From Chloroflexia bacterium SDU3-3 (GTDB taxonomy: Bacteria; Chloroflexota; Chloroflexia; Chloroflexales; Roseiflexaceae), in NCBI GenBank assembly GCA_009268125.1, contig WBOU01000016.1:1-64000 (forward strand): a DNA stretch of 64,000 nt. The letters run 5' to 3'. The notes beneath the pieces were generated by a model that worked only from the letters and a program-made list of their open reading frames with translations, was not told the origin of the DNA and ran no database searches. A program made the position numbers and the translations under genes. Below are positions 45,693-55,712 of this stretch, piece after piece; position 1 is the first letter of the stretch; each line of letters opens with the position of its first letter.

Positions 45693-45796
45693 CACATGCT
45701 CCTGATTCAAAAAGAGTTATTGCCCCTTTATACACCAAAACAGGCGAACAGATGAGCGCTAGAGGCACGTGACTTTTTCGTAGAATGTCGGAAAAT

Positions 45797-46153
45797 GTGC
45801 CCAGCGCTCGGGGTGACATGCTCAGCGCTCGGGATGACGTGCTCAGTGCTCGGGAAGGCGTGCTCAGTGCTCGGGATGACGTGCTCAGTGCTCGGGATGA
45901 CGTGCTCAGTGCTTGGGATGACGTGCTCAGTGCTTGGGATGACGTGCTCAGTGCTCGGGATGACGTGCTCTGCGCTCGGGATGACGTGCTCAGTGCTCGG
46001 GATGACGTGCTCAGTGCTCGGGATGACGTGCTCAGTGCTCGGGATGACATGCTCAGTGCTCGGGATGACGTGCTCTGCGCTCGGGGTGACGTGCTCAGTG
46101 CTCGGGATGACGTGCTCAGTGCTCGGGAAGGCCTGCTCTACGCTTGGGAAGAT
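45797..46153. repeat. Tandem array of seventeen 21-bp units
   Basis: Seventeen exact 21-base units of GTGCTCAGTGCTCGGGATGA(C) from 45797 to 46153. Variants change GTG to ATG, GTGCTC to GCGCTC, GATGAC to GAAGGC. Since 21 is divisible by three, several frames stay open on both strands, giving (SARDDVL)n on plus and (VIPSTEH)n on minus. There is no ribosome site for either, so I call it non-coding. It lies between the pentapeptide gene start and the ips terminator. Confidence 0.92.
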
Positions 46154-46168
46154 TGCACAGCAGGGGCA

Positions 46169-46200
46169 CAAAAAAAGCGCGGGGGCCGAAGCCCCCGCGC
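46169..46200 (-). terminator. Terminator of the inositol-phosphate synthase gene
   Basis: On the minus strand GCGCGGGGGC, TTCG, GCCCCCGCGC, then TTTTTTTG: a ten-base-pair stem with a stable tetraloop and a T-run. Confidence 0.9.
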
Positions 46201-50725: not shown

Positions 50726-52099
50726 GTGGCATCAGAACCAACCACCCGCGAGCGTATTCTCATCGCGGATGATGAGGAAGGGCTGCGCGAGCTACTTTCC
50801 GACCTGCTGACCGACGAGGGCTACGAGGTCGATGCCGTCGCATCGGGCACCGATGTGATGAGCCGCATCGACGGCGGCGAGACCTATGGCCTGCTGCTGC
50901 TCGACCTCAAGATGCCTGGGATCAGCGGCATAGATATTCTGGAAAAGCTGCGCGCCAACAACAACGACGTGCCGGTGATCATGATCACGGGCTACGGCAC
51001 ATCGTCGAGCGCGATCCGCGCCATGCAGATGGGCGCATACGACTACCTGATGAAGCCCTTCGACAACGAGGAGGTGGTCGTCACCATCCGCCGCCTGTTC
51101 GAGCACCGCGCCCTGGCCTCGCGCGTGCGCCAGCTTGAGCAGCGCTCGCCCGAGGACCGCATGATCGGGCGCAGCCCCGCCATGCGCGAGATCTACAAGA
51201 CCGTGGGCCTGGTGGCCGCATCCGAGGCGTCGGTGCTGATCACCGGCGAGACTGGCACCGGCAAGGAGCTGGTGGCCAACATCATCCACCAGAACTCGGG
51301 GCGCAAGGGCGCGTTCATCCCGGTGAACTGCGCGGCCCTGCCCGAGACCCTGATCGAGAGCGAGCTGTTCGGCCACGAGAAGGGCGCGTTCACCGGCGCG
51401 ATGGCCCAGCGCAAGGGCCGCTTCGAGCTGGCCAATAAGGGCACGATCTTCCTGGATGAGGTGGGCGAGATCTCGCTGCCGGTGCAGAAGAAGCTGCTGC
51501 GCGTGCTCCAGGAGAGCGAGATCGAGCGCGTGGGCGGCGCGGGCGCGTTCAAAGTGGATGTGCGCGTGATCGCCGCCACCAACCGCGACCTGCTTGAGGA
51601 GGTGCGGCTGGGCAACTTCCGCGAGGATCTGTACTACCGGCTCAACGTGGTCAACATCCACATGCCGCCGCTGCGCGAGCGCCGGGGCGATCTGGCGCTG
51701 CTGGTCGAGCACTTTCTCAACAAGTATCGCTTCAAGCCCACCGCCCAGCCTACCCGTATCTCGGAAGAGGCCATGCAGCGCATCGAGGAGTACGACTGGC
51801 CCGGCAACGTGCGCCAGCTCGAAAACGAGATCGAGCGCGCCGTCACGCTCTCGCAGGGCCGGGTGGTCACCAGCCAGATCCTCAGCCTGGGCACGGCAGG
51901 CCAGCCCGCCCAGATCGACCTGGCAAACCGCGTGCGCAACCGCGACGGCCTGGCCCAGGTGCTGGCCGACGTCGAGCGGATCTTGCTGCAGGAGGCGCTG
52001 CGCCAGGCCGACGGCGACGCCGACGAGGCCGCCCGCAGGCTTCAGATCTCCACTGCCGAGCTGGGCAAGCGCCTGAAGACCCACAGCCTCTCGGTCTAG
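50726..52099 (+). CDS. Sigma-54-dependent response regulator, NtrC family
   Basis: A 457-residue activator of RpoN polymerase. Receiver domain 10-125 with phosphoacceptor Asp60 ([10 protein letters not shown]). AAA+ domain about 148-385 with Walker A GETGTGKE (174-181), the sigma-54-contacting GAFTGA loop (220-225), Walker B IFLDE (241-245) and the arginine fingers in [13 protein letters not shown]-terminal Fis-like helix-turn-helix ends the protein ([20 protein letters not shown]). All parts needed for activation are intact. The start is GTG. RpoN is encoded 0.8 kb downstream and a histidine kinase with its own receiver lies at 55776; either could be part of its pathway. Confidence 0.94.
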
Positions 52100-52172: not shown

Positions 52173-52622
52173 CTACCGCGCTATCGTATAGATCACCAGC
52201 GTGCTCGCGCCGCGTGCGTCGCGCAGCACCTCGCGCACCTGGCTCGGCGCAACCTCGCCTCGGCTCAGCGGGTCGTAGCCGCGCTGCCCCTCAACGTAGT
52301 AGTAGTAGCTGGTGCCACCCACGCTCAGGCCGCGCACGCTGCTGGCCGGAGCCAGCGCGCCCGCCCCGGCTTCCACCATAGGGTCGGCAGCCACACCATC
52401 CAGTCGATCCAGCACCGCCGTGCGTACCGCCATCACGTCCGCCGCAGCGGCCACCGGCGTGGCCGCAGGCACTGCCGCCGCGCTAATCGAGACGCCAGCC
52501 ACAATCGCAACCAGCAGCACCACACCCATAGCCAGCAGCAGCGGCATGCCCAGCCGCACGCGCCGCGACGATGAGGCCGTCTCGTTCGATTTGGTGAAGG
52601 TTGTCGAGGGAGCGTGGATCAT
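52173..52622 (-). CDS. Hypothetical single-pass membrane protein, candidate sigma-54 target
   Basis: A 149-residue protein. A basic N terminus (SSRRVRLG) leads into one membrane helix (MPLLLAMGVVLLVAIVAGVS) and an Ala-rich linker. The exposed C-terminal part has SVGGTSYYYYVEGQRGYDPL and SQVREVLRDARGASTLVIYT; no family is recognised. AAAGGAGAG precedes the ATG. It lies between the NtrC-type gene and rpoN, on the opposite strand, and upstream of it is a GG-N10-GC sigma-54-type element. That makes it the best local candidate for RpoN control. Confidence 0.6.
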   Translation of the reverse strand: MIHAPSTTFTKSNETASSSRRVRLGMPLLLAMGVVLLVAIVAGVSISAAAVPAATPVAAAADVMAVRTAVLDRLDGVAADPMVEAGAGALAPASSVRGLSVGGTSYYYYVEGQRGYDPLSRGEVAPSQVREVLRDARGASTLVIYTIAR

Positions 52623-52708
52623 ATGCGTCTCTCCTTTTTGAGCGACGAGAGAAAACTCTCATTTTTATCAGCGCCGTGCGAGCAAACGGTGGTACGGTTC
52701 TTGAAAAG

Positions 52709-52724
52709 AGCAGGAAGTGTGCCA
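52709..52724 (-). promoter_or_regulatory. Candidate sigma-54 promoter
   Basis: Minus-strand TGGCACACTTCCTGCT has the invariant GG and GC exactly ten bases apart and the TGGCAC -24 box. Transcription would start near 52698, about 75 bases before the 52622 start codon. A related element, TGGCACGTTTTTTGTA, lies 117 bases further upstream (52826-52841) but has GT in place of GC. An imperfect inverted repeat at 52751-52772 between them could bind an activator. Confidence 0.6.
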
Positions 52725-52915
52725 CCGTGAAGATCTGCCCTGAGCATATCATCGTAGTATCCTACCGACGATAGCGAGCGGCTGAGCGATCTGTGACACG
52801 CTGCTGATGTACCTGAGATACACACTACAAAAAACGTGCCACCAGAGCTTTTTGGTCCCCATCTCTGGCGGCGGGCGCAGAAAACTGTTGGGGAACTAGC
52901 AACGAGGATGCACAG

Positions 52916-54295
52916 ATGATGGATATGTCGATGGGGATGGGGCTGCTGCCGCAGCAGCAGATGCGTGCATCGCCCGCACTGATCGCGCTCAACAACATGC
53001 TGGTGCTCTCGAACACCGAGCTGCAGCAGCTGGTGCAGCAGGAGATCGAGGACAACCCGGCCCTTGAGCAGCTGGAGAGCGAGGAGTCGCTGTGCAGCCG
53101 CTGCGGTCGCCCGCTGAGCGGTGCGACCTGCATCTACTGCCTCCACGAGGACATGCGCCTAGCCGAGGCCGAGCGCGACGATAGCAGCGGCACGCCGCCC
53201 GACGACGAGTTCGACCCCATGCTGGCCATCGCCGCGCCGATCTCGCTGCAGGAGAGCCTGCAGCGCGACCTGCACATCTCGCTGCCCCAGGAGGATCACG
53301 GCATCGCCGACTACCTGCTCGGCTCGCTCAACGACCAAGGCTTCCTCGACGATGATGTCGATATTATCGCCGATATCCTGCGCACCGATGCCCCACGCGT
53401 CGAGCGCGTGCTCAAGAAGCTCCAGGAGCTTGGCCCGGCGGGCGTGGGCGCGCGCAACATCCAGGAGTGCCTGCTCATCCAGATCGATAGGCTTGAGGCC
53501 ACCGGCATCAGCAACCCCCACATCCACAAGATCGTAGCTGACCACTGGCTCGATCTCGGCGAGCACCGCTACGGCGTGATCGCCCAGGCCCTCGGCATCA
53601 GCTACGAGGATGTGGTGGAGGCCCGCGACTTCATGCGCCAGCACCTGCGGCCCTTCCCGCTGGAGAGCACCGGCGACGGCCACACCACATCCGAGACCAC
53701 CTACCTCATCCCCGACGTGATCATCCGCGAGGAGGCCGACAAGCTGGTGATCGAAGTGGTTGAGTCGCGCCGCTTCTACCTGCGGCTCAGCCCGATCTAC
53801 CAGGATCTCACCCAGGCCGTCACCGCTGGCGAGCAGCAGGTCTCCGTCGAGGAGCGCGACCACCTGCGCACCTTCGTGTCGCGGGCGCGGCTGTTCCTCA
53901 CCAACATCCGCCAGCGCCGCGAGACCATCCGCCGCATCGCCGAGTATCTGGTGGAGCGGCAGGAGGCCTACCTGCGCCACGGCGTGCGCCACCTGGAGCC
54001 GCTGACCCGCGCCGAGGTGGCCAACGCGGTGGGCGTGCACGAGTCGACGGTGAGCCGCGCCACCGCCAACAAGTTTGTGCAGCTCCCCAGCAAGCAGATC
54101 GTCCCCTTCAGCCACTTCTTCACCGCATCGCTCTCGATCAAGGATGTGATCCAGGAGCTGGTCAACAACGAGAAGGTGCCGCTCACCGATCAAGAGCTAG
54201 TGGAGATGCTAGGTGAGCGCGGGTTCGACGTGGCCCGCCGCACGGTGGCCAAATACCGCGCGCAGCTGGGCATCCTGCCCTCTACGCTGCGCTAG
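52916..54295 (+). CDS. rpoN: RNA polymerase sigma-54 factor with zinc-ribbon-like insert
   Basis: A 459-residue sigma-54. Region I, the Gln/Leu-rich activator-responsive part, is residues 1-50 (NMLVLSNTELQQLVQQEIED, NPALEQLE). Region II follows. The core-binding region includes SLQESLQRDLHISLP and GPAGVGARNIQECLLIQI. The DNA-binding part has the helix-turn-helix TRAEVANAVGVHESTVSRAT and the RpoN box ARRTVAKYR at 440-448. Unusual is CSRCGRPLSGATCIYC (Cys60, 63, 72, 75) in region II, a likely zinc ribbon. GAGGATG precedes the start; ATG 52919 is equally possible. Confidence 0.95.
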   Translation: MMDMSMGMGLLPQQQMRASPALIALNNMLVLSNTELQQLVQQEIEDNPALEQLESEESLCSRCGRPLSGATCIYCLHEDMRLAEAERDDSSGTPPDDEFDPMLAIAAPISLQESLQRDLHISLPQEDHGIADYLLGSLNDQGFLDDDVDIIADILRTDAPRVERVLKKLQELGPAGVGARNIQECLLIQIDRLEATGISNPHIHKIVADHWLDLGEHRYGVIAQALGISYEDVVEARDFMRQHLRPFPLESTGDGHTTSETTYLIPDVIIREEADKLVIEVVESRRFYLRLSPIYQDLTQAVTAGEQQVSVEERDHLRTFVSRARLFLTNIRQRRETIRRIAEYLVERQEAYLRHGVRHLEPLTRAEVANAVGVHESTVSRATANKFVQLPSKQIVPFSHFFTASLSIKDVIQELVNNEKVPLTDQELVEMLGERGFDVARRTVAKYRAQLGILPSTLR

Positions 54296-54566: not shown

Positions 54567-54863
54567 ATGCGCTATCTCCCTCCGCTGCTCAGCGCCCTCG
54601 GGGCCATCGAGGCCCTGCTGATCGCGCGGCTGCTGCTGCGGCTTATGGCGGCCCGCCCCGACAACCCGGCCTTCGCGGCGCTGCTGGCCGTCACCGGTGT
54701 GCTGCGCGCACCCCTGGCCGCCCTCGATGCTGGGCAGCCGCAATTTGGCGCGACGCTTGAATTCTCCACGCTGGCGCTGCTCGTGCTGCTGGCCGCCATC
54801 ATGCTGGCGCTAGGGCTGCTGGCCCGGCGTAGCACCCAAACCGCAAGGATATCGCATGGATAA
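54567..54863 (+). CDS. YggT-like small membrane protein
   Basis: A 98-residue protein with two or three hydrophobic helices. The first half, LIARLLLRLMAARPDNPAFA followed by LLAVTGVLRAPLAAL, resembles the YggT repeat (R..L.L....NP....L...T.P...P), and the second half is a long hydrophobic helix (LEFSTLALLVLLAAIMLALG). The family is linked to cell-surface or osmotic functions without firm proof. AAAGGAAATG precedes the ATG. Its end overlaps the next gene by eight bases. Confidence 0.7.
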   Translation: MRYLPPLLSALGAIEALLIARLLLRLMAARPDNPAFAALLAVTGVLRAPLAALDAGQPQFGATLEFSTLALLVLLAAIMLALGLLARRSTQTARISHG

Positions 54864-55326
54864 TGCTTTCACCCAGTTCCTAGCCATATTTGGCATCATC
54901 GCCGCCACATGCGTCATCATCGGCCTGCTTGGGCTGGCGCTGCTGGTGCGCTCCATCCGCCAGCTCGACATCCCGCGCGACGCCGACTTCTTCACCACCA
55001 TGCGCCATGTGCCGATTGCGCTGGTCATTATGCTCGACCTGCTGGATCTAGGGATGGACATCTTCGCCACGCCGATCGTGTGGATCTTTCTTGACCGCAT
55101 GGGCCTGCCCAGCCTGCGTAACAAGGCTCTGATCGAGGCGCTCATCCCCTTCACCGGCCCCATCCCCACCTTCACCATTGGGTGGATCGCCGCGCGGTGG
55201 CTGAACCTTGGCGAGGCCGACCTACATATGGCCCGGCAGCTCGCGCAGGGCATCCGCCCGCAGATCATCGATATGGACGAGGGCGGGCCGACGCGCTACA
55301 ATGCACCCAGGAAAGAGATCCGCTAG
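54856..55326 (+). CDS. Hypothetical membrane protein
   Basis: A 156-residue protein with about three hydrophobic helices: FLAIFGIIAATCVIIGLLGL, then MRHVPIALVIMLDLLDLGMD, then PFTGPIPTFTIGWIAARWLN. The C-terminal tail is hydrophilic (RPQIIDMDEGGPTRYNAPRK). I do not recognise a family. Overlap with the YggT-like gene indicates coupled translation, and the GlsB-like gene follows 60 bases on, so the three form a small membrane-protein operon. Confidence 0.6.
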   Translation: MDNAFTQFLAIFGIIAATCVIIGLLGLALLVRSIRQLDIPRDADFFTTMRHVPIALVIMLDLLDLGMDIFATPIVWIFLDRMGLPSLRNKALIEALIPFTGPIPTFTIGWIAARWLNLGEADLHMARQLAQGIRPQIIDMDEGGPTRYNAPRKEIR

Positions 55327-55388: not shown

Positions 55389-55712
55389 ATGGACCTGCTG
55401 CTTGAGATCATTATGGCGGTGACGATCGTGGGGATCTGCGGCGCGATCGCCGAGTTCGTGGTGGGCTACAGCCCCGGCCAGATCCTGCTGGTGATGCTGG
55501 TGGGCGTGGTAGGCGCATACCTTGGCAACGGTATCGCGATTGGGCTGGCGGCCTTCATCCCATCGCTGCCATCGCTCATCCTGATCAGGGTCGGCACCTT
55601 TACCTTCGACCTGATCTGGACCTTCCTTGGCTCGTGCCTCATCCTGCTGGTGCTTTCGCTGCTGCGCGGCGGGCGGCGGCGCACGATCTTCGCCAACGGC
55701 GCTGGCGAGTAG
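55389..55712 (+). CDS. GlsB/YeaQ/YmgE-type small membrane protein
   Basis: A 107-residue protein with three or four hydrophobic helices. ICGAIAEFVVGYSPGQILLV is the beginning of the transglycosylase-associated protein family, although the usual Gly-rich 'G..A..I..G' pattern is only partly kept, and FTFDLIWTFLGSCLILLVLS closes it. Family members are induced by general stress in many bacteria but their role is unclear. GGAGAG lies before the ATG. Its stop codon begins the left arm of a 21-bp inverted repeat. Confidence 0.65.
   Translation: MDLLLEIIMAVTIVGICGAIAEFVVGYSPGQILLVMLVGVVGAYLGNGIAIGLAAFIPSLPSLILIRVGTFTFDLIWTFLGSCLILLVLSLLRGGRRRTIFANGAGE

Follow-up and report, generated by a model that had tools for sequence, protein, structure and literature searches.

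The window analysed here is a 64,000-nucleotide stretch of DNA from a Kouleothrix-like Chloroflexota genome of 6.76 Mb (G000 in the following). It carries the genome's sole sigma-54 gene, rpoN, and a gene for an NtrC-type response regulator. Between the two lies an open reading frame of 149 codons on the opposite strand, which is separated from rpoN by a 293-bp gap with several sigma-54-like elements. The features of this region are as follows:

50726-52099, plus strand: NtrC/AtoC-type response regulator with a receiver domain, an AAA+ domain with the GAFTGA motif and a degenerate Fis-type helix-turn-helix (HTH)
52173-52622, minus strand: gene for a 149-residue protein with one predicted membrane helix (residues 26-50) and a C-terminal alpha/beta domain
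52690-52705, plus strand: weak sigma-54-like element TGGTACGGTTCTTGAA, directed toward rpoN and converging on the proximal element
52709-52724, minus strand: very probable proximal sigma-54 (-24/-12) promoter TGGCACACTTCCTGCT of the 149-residue gene, judged by exact GG-N10-GC spacing, a leave-out matrix and a shared core in the relative G008
52751-52772, no strand: imperfect dyad, not above chance
52826-52841, minus strand: distal sigma-54-like element TGGCACGTTTTTTGTA with GT for GC at -12; weak, function doubtful
52916-54295, plus strand: rpoN (TIGR02395, above cut-off)
54567-54863, plus strand: small membrane gene, YggT-like by resemblance, which follows rpoN in several relatives
54856-55326, plus strand: 156-residue membrane protein after rpoN, in conserved order
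55389-55712, plus strand: GlsB/YeaQ-like (Transgly_assoc) membrane protein, of a family common to many putative sigma-54 targets elsewhere in the genome
55776-57671, minus strand: receiver-GAF-PAS-histidine kinase, a candidate input to the activator

Elsewhere in the window, positions 45785-46200 hold a tandem array of short repeats (SSRALST / VLGMTCS), which leaves several reading frames open for about 130-180 codons.

RpoN possesses both its core-binding and its DNA-binding domains. The 149-residue protein features a conserved YYYYxEG..FDPLSRG stretch and matched no Pfam or NCBIfam family. Its structure prediction yielded a fair model (pLDDT 80.8, pTM 0.56), the fold of which had no PDB match with an E-value below 0.7.

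The proximal element TGGCACACTTCCTGCT lies 86 nt from the ATG of this small gene and combines TGGCAC and TGCW boxes in the exact GG-N10-GC spacing that a preliminary description of the locus had reported; transcription from it is predicted to start near 52695-52698. On motif alone, it is unremarkable, since TGGCACN6TGCW occurs once in the 64-kb window against 0.71 expected occurrences, and context has to decide. In the context of the genome, the element is highly significant: with a 32-position matrix trained on other promoters of the genome, the window site being excluded, it scores 22.7 bits and ranks 11th among the 2.52 million positions of a scan that covered 1.26 Mb (about 19% of the genome). 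The 12 top-scoring sites all face genes, a result that is partly circular because the training sites, to which 10 of the 12 belong, were in part picked as gene-facing. In G008, the closest of the relatives that share this gene order, TGGCACGTTATCTGCT is found 71 nt upstream of the same small gene and shares the core motif, with a score of only 8.8 bits under the full matrix. The proximal element does not have the GGCAG initiator found in many other promoters of the genome. We consider it very probably a functional sigma-54 promoter, and the recurrence of the core in G008 supports the earlier suggestion that the small gene depends on sigma-54 by way of this element.

This element belongs to a larger set. 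TGGCAC-N6-TGCW occurs at 57 sites in the genome, 31 of which face a gene within 300 nt, with 18 located 30-75 nt upstream (gene calls by our own simple codon-score script). Enrichment is confined to the N6 spacing, which gives 11 facing sites in 1.26 Mb; the remaining spacings between N2 and N11 give 0-2 each, with a mean of 0.9 (Poisson probability about 3e-9). Among rpoN-less relatives, 2 of 30 sites are gene-facing in G010, and no such site was found in 0.4 Mb of G009, for which the gene calls are poor (55% coding). Furthermore, a CAG starts 12 nt past the element in 9 of 25 promoters, just where a sigma-54 transcript would start, and as an independent feature this initiator supports the view that the promoters are real. 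The promoter set, its spacing and its initiator are direct observations, and from them we infer promoter activity. Whole-genome motif counts against a reversed-pattern control were also tried; they proved misleading, because rpoN-less genomes show an excess too, and were dropped for tests of position, spacing and target.

The genes behind these sites are of a consistent kind. Pfam identifies five copies of GlsB/Transgly_assoc genes with consensus elements and one with a single mismatch, alongside two KGG proteins, a Dps-type ferritin, catalase, Fe/Mn superoxide dismutase, ChaB, topoisomerase IB, a YegS-type lipid kinase, YflT/DUF1269 and DUF326; GlgE, an amylase-family enzyme and YggT follow elements with one mismatch. 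Housekeeping or transport genes lie behind a minority of the sites, at greater distances, and malate dehydrogenase and binding-protein lipoproteins are targets outside the stress category. Judged by these identities, most of the predicted targets are genes for general stress, desiccation or envelope protection under coordinated promoters, as in a stress regulon, and the presence of this promoter set before stress genes suggests that in these Chloroflexota sigma-54 works with one activator as a stress-response switch.

Likewise, the genes faced by elements in the Herpetosiphon-like G063, a member of another family, are those for Dps, a GlsB pair, another GlsB, DUF1269 and a CsbD-like protein, as well as for trehalose-phosphate synthase-like, TerC-like and HU-like proteins. 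Apart from GlsB, these names are our own reading of the sequences; 38 of the 53 consensus sites in G063 lie inside genes, and a second batch of sites was chosen by hand. The GlsB pair of this genome is preceded by three tandem copies of TGGCACACTTTCTGCA (G063:C1:4893864-4894032; L348:3365-3533). Across the class, an element with at most 1.5 mismatches precedes 14 of 22 GlsB loci in rpoN-containing genomes from six families, whereas the reverse strand gives one of 22 and the rpoN-less genomes none of eight. This contrast mixes paralogue loss with element loss, as rpoN-less genomes mostly do not have the element-bearing GlsB paralogue. A family search for KGG proteins in the relatives gave no match, but its very short model of 22 positions makes this result uninformative.

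A search of the genome with PF00158 returned two strong sigma-54-interaction proteins, of which one is the window regulator. The other (L070:10378-12336, on G000:C29) was considered as a second sigma-54 activator and rejected: GYEGQH replaces GAFTGA, and the gene belongs to a glycerol/dihydroxyacetone operon, where it adjoins dhaK/dhaL, glpK and glycerol-phosphate dehydrogenase genes and reads as a DhaR-type regulator. This leaves the window regulator as the sole evident sigma-54 activator and the only GAFTGA-bearing one found in the genome. It scores 441.6 bits against the NtrC model TIGR01818, below the equivalog cut-off of 558.6, and also falls below that of AtoC.

The distribution of the activator follows that of rpoN, which is present in 61 of 115 genomes of the class. 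Orthologues with at least 50% identity were found in 16 of 17 rpoN-containing genomes, the exception being the fragmentary G052, and in none of four rpoN-less genomes. G005 (L283) and G009 (L296) retain murA, the small gene, the YggT-like gene, GlsB and the kinase, and are without exactly ntrC and rpoN, which appear to have been lost jointly (or to be jointly absent) there, as expected of an obligate pair. By gene content, then, sigma factor and NtrC-type activator form a pair; the receiver-GAF-PAS-histidine kinase persists in rpoN-less relatives. Some genomes of the same order contain decayed or fragmentary rpoN copies with in-frame stops (G033:C40, G037:C57 and G050:C4), and in G001 a second and more distant rpoN is accompanied by an activator of its own, with a GlsB gene close by (L352; G001:C2:313000-327000).

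Among 150 genomes of the class, 33 have a homolog of the small membrane gene, many of them rpoN-less, and an upstream element is seen only where the gene adjoins rpoN: clearly in G000 and G008, and weakly in G001, which has the same gene order, yet 2.5 mismatches in its element. No element was detected before the gene in the rpoN-containing genomes in which it lies away from rpoN (G028, G041, G049, G052, G054, G056 and G057). As the small gene is widespread where rpoN and the element are missing, it is best described, on present sequences, as a lineage-specific regulon member and not as an obligate partner. The preliminary description had conceived of activator, sigma factor and target as one unit. 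The pairing of the first two holds, but the small gene is not obligate and most predicted targets are located elsewhere in the genome. The conservation in relatives that it had proposed as a check is similarly divided: the core is kept in G008, the element is weak in G001, and none is seen where the gene lies away from rpoN. Outside the closest lineage, this is the outcome that the preliminary description had named as refuting its idea, namely relatives that keep the gene but not the elements.

The remaining elements of the gap are weaker. The distal element TGGCACGTTTTTTGTA, located 117 bases upstream of TGGCACACTTCCTGCT, likewise faces the small gene and has GT at -12, as had been described. 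It reaches 10.2 bits, a score that 119 positions equal or exceed (about 0.03 expected in the 293-bp gap on both strands), and is followed by a CAG 11 nt downstream; with the -12 GC absent, it does not clearly exceed background, and its function is doubtful. The proposed tandem arrangement is therefore not borne out, the distal element being weak and G008 having a single element. The dyad, put forward as an activator site between the two, was dropped: its arms match at six of nine positions, and seven matches are usual in dinucleotide-shuffled versions of this gap. On the plus strand, TGGTACGGTTCTTGAA, which had escaped the preliminary description, also does not have the -12 GC (5.85 bits, rank 673) and is possibly a remnant of rpoN autoregulation. 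Better rpoN-facing elements with at most one mismatch are present in G028, G054, G063, L004 and L005, and make such autoregulation plausible elsewhere in the class. They lie 107-148 nt upstream of rpoN (L004:5843-5858, L005:5845-5860, L343 and L342 for G028 and G054, and L344 for G063).

Given these findings, we think that the proximal element is probably one member of a genome-wide RpoN regulon made up mainly of general stress-protection genes. In such a system, RpoN holoenzyme would sit as a closed complex at TGGCAC-N6-TGCW promoters until the only NtrC-type response regulator, the product of a gene beside rpoN, is phosphorylated by a kinase. The AAA+ ring of this regulator would then open these promoters together. 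The output would comprise Dps, catalase, superoxide dismutase, GlsB, KGG proteins and glucan enzymes, with trehalose enzymes and CsbD-like proteins in a relative, and in the present lineage it would include the small membrane protein encoded next to these regulators. A broader reading, for which we would not claim even odds, is that sigma-54 may have become the general stress sigma factor in the class Chloroflexia. One AAA+ response regulator, once phosphorylated, would switch the whole regulon with no need of dedicated enhancer sites, and whole lineages would have dropped this regulator and the sigma factor together.

Several other readings of the locus have to be weighed against this one. 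An rpoN gene near an NtrC-type gene calls to mind classical nitrogen control, in which the pair would respond to nitrogen limitation and the small gene would encode a nitrogen-controlled membrane protein. The activator does resemble the AtoC and NtrC models, and one consensus site is located 149 nt before an amino-acid-type binding-protein gene; but the activator stays below the equivalog cut-offs of both models, and, that gene aside, no nitrogen-assimilation gene is among the faced proteins that we read, which stress genes dominate, so that this is the least probable of the readings considered. It is also unlikely, if slightly less so, that the elements constitute a local module, with tandem promoters and an activator site serving the small gene only. 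Adjacency and the element in G000 and G008, together with the gene order in G001, would fit such a module, but not the many homologs of the small gene without rpoN and element, the chance-level dyad, the weak distal element and the dozens of similar promoters elsewhere in the genome.

We attach the same low probability to a chance match, with the small gene transcribed from another promoter: the bare motif is indeed expected 0.7 times per 64 kb and the GGCAG initiator is missing, but the rank of the site under a matrix that excluded it and the recurrence of the core before the same gene in G008 speak against it. Rather more credit, although still little, is due to the idea that the distal and plus-strand elements are used as well, giving the small gene two starts or forming a convergent pair that limits RpoN synthesis. 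It gains from the rpoN-facing elements of the five relatives, the three tandem elements before the GlsB pair of G063 and the CAG downstream of the distal element, and loses from the fact that both elements score like background and do not have the -12 GC. The genome-wide stress regulon thus remains our preferred reading.

Within this reading, the least certain step concerns how the activator reaches its promoters. Mean column identity in the activator is 0.79 for the AAA+ domain and 0.61 for the receiver, but drops to 0.42 for the recognition helix; about 5 of 18 orthologues have this helix in truncated form. An expectation-maximisation search for a common upstream activator site produced nothing convincing, as the likelihoods were only modestly above Markov controls and the consensus was GC-rich and codon-like; moreover, the -24 box often directly adjoins the gene before it, at its 3' end or terminator. 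From the missing shared site, the weak recognition helix, the abutted -24 box and the precedent of FlgR and CtcC, we infer that the activator works without dedicated enhancers. However, HTH_8 is detected in 16 of the 18 activators, though the recognition helix is poorly conserved, and enhancer sites may therefore exist unseen.

With its RpoN domains, its -24/-12 promoters of the GG-N10-GC type and an activator that joins a receiver to a GAFTGA-bearing AAA+ domain, the system resembles other sigma-54/NtrC-type systems, but it differs from them in that it would govern a general stress regulon through the one activator found in the genome, with no shared enhancer site detected. In this respect, it is reminiscent of Chlamydia CtcC, Helicobacter FlgR and Borrelia Rrp2, where the RpoN regulon likewise depends on one response-regulator ATPase. 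Published listings give FlgR and CtcC no HTH, and CtcC no DNA-binding domain (PMC7175178, PMC7482065). Unlike these proteins, the Chloroflexia activator keeps a recognisable, but unconserved and sometimes truncated HTH, and its predicted targets are stress genes instead of flagellar or infection-cycle genes. In a published survey, sigma-54 was reported in only some Chloroflexi, and the common theme suggested for it was control of the bacterial exterior (PMC3162934). In the literature that we searched, we found no description of the sigma-54 regulon of Chloroflexi, nor of a sigma-54 stress regulon there.

The phage shock response, in which PspF acts with sigma-54, also links this factor to stress and to membrane proteins. 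PspF, however, has no receiver domain and controls few genes, whereas a response regulator and dozens of promoters appear to be involved here. General stress responses are otherwise known to be run by sigma-70-family factors, namely SigB in Bacillus, RpoS in enterics and EcfG in alphaproteobacteria, whose regulons include targets such as Dps, catalase, GsiB-like KGG, CsbD and YflT proteins. The kinds of target overlap with those described here, but the promoters are of the sigma-54 type, with ATP-driven opening, and not of the sigma-70 family. The parts are thus of known kinds, and it is the wiring, with RpoN as a general stress factor under one activator, that appears to be new. If this is true, stress genes would become predictable from their elements in a poorly studied phylum, and sigma-54 could act as a general stress factor, for which ATP-driven opening would provide a tight on/off switch.
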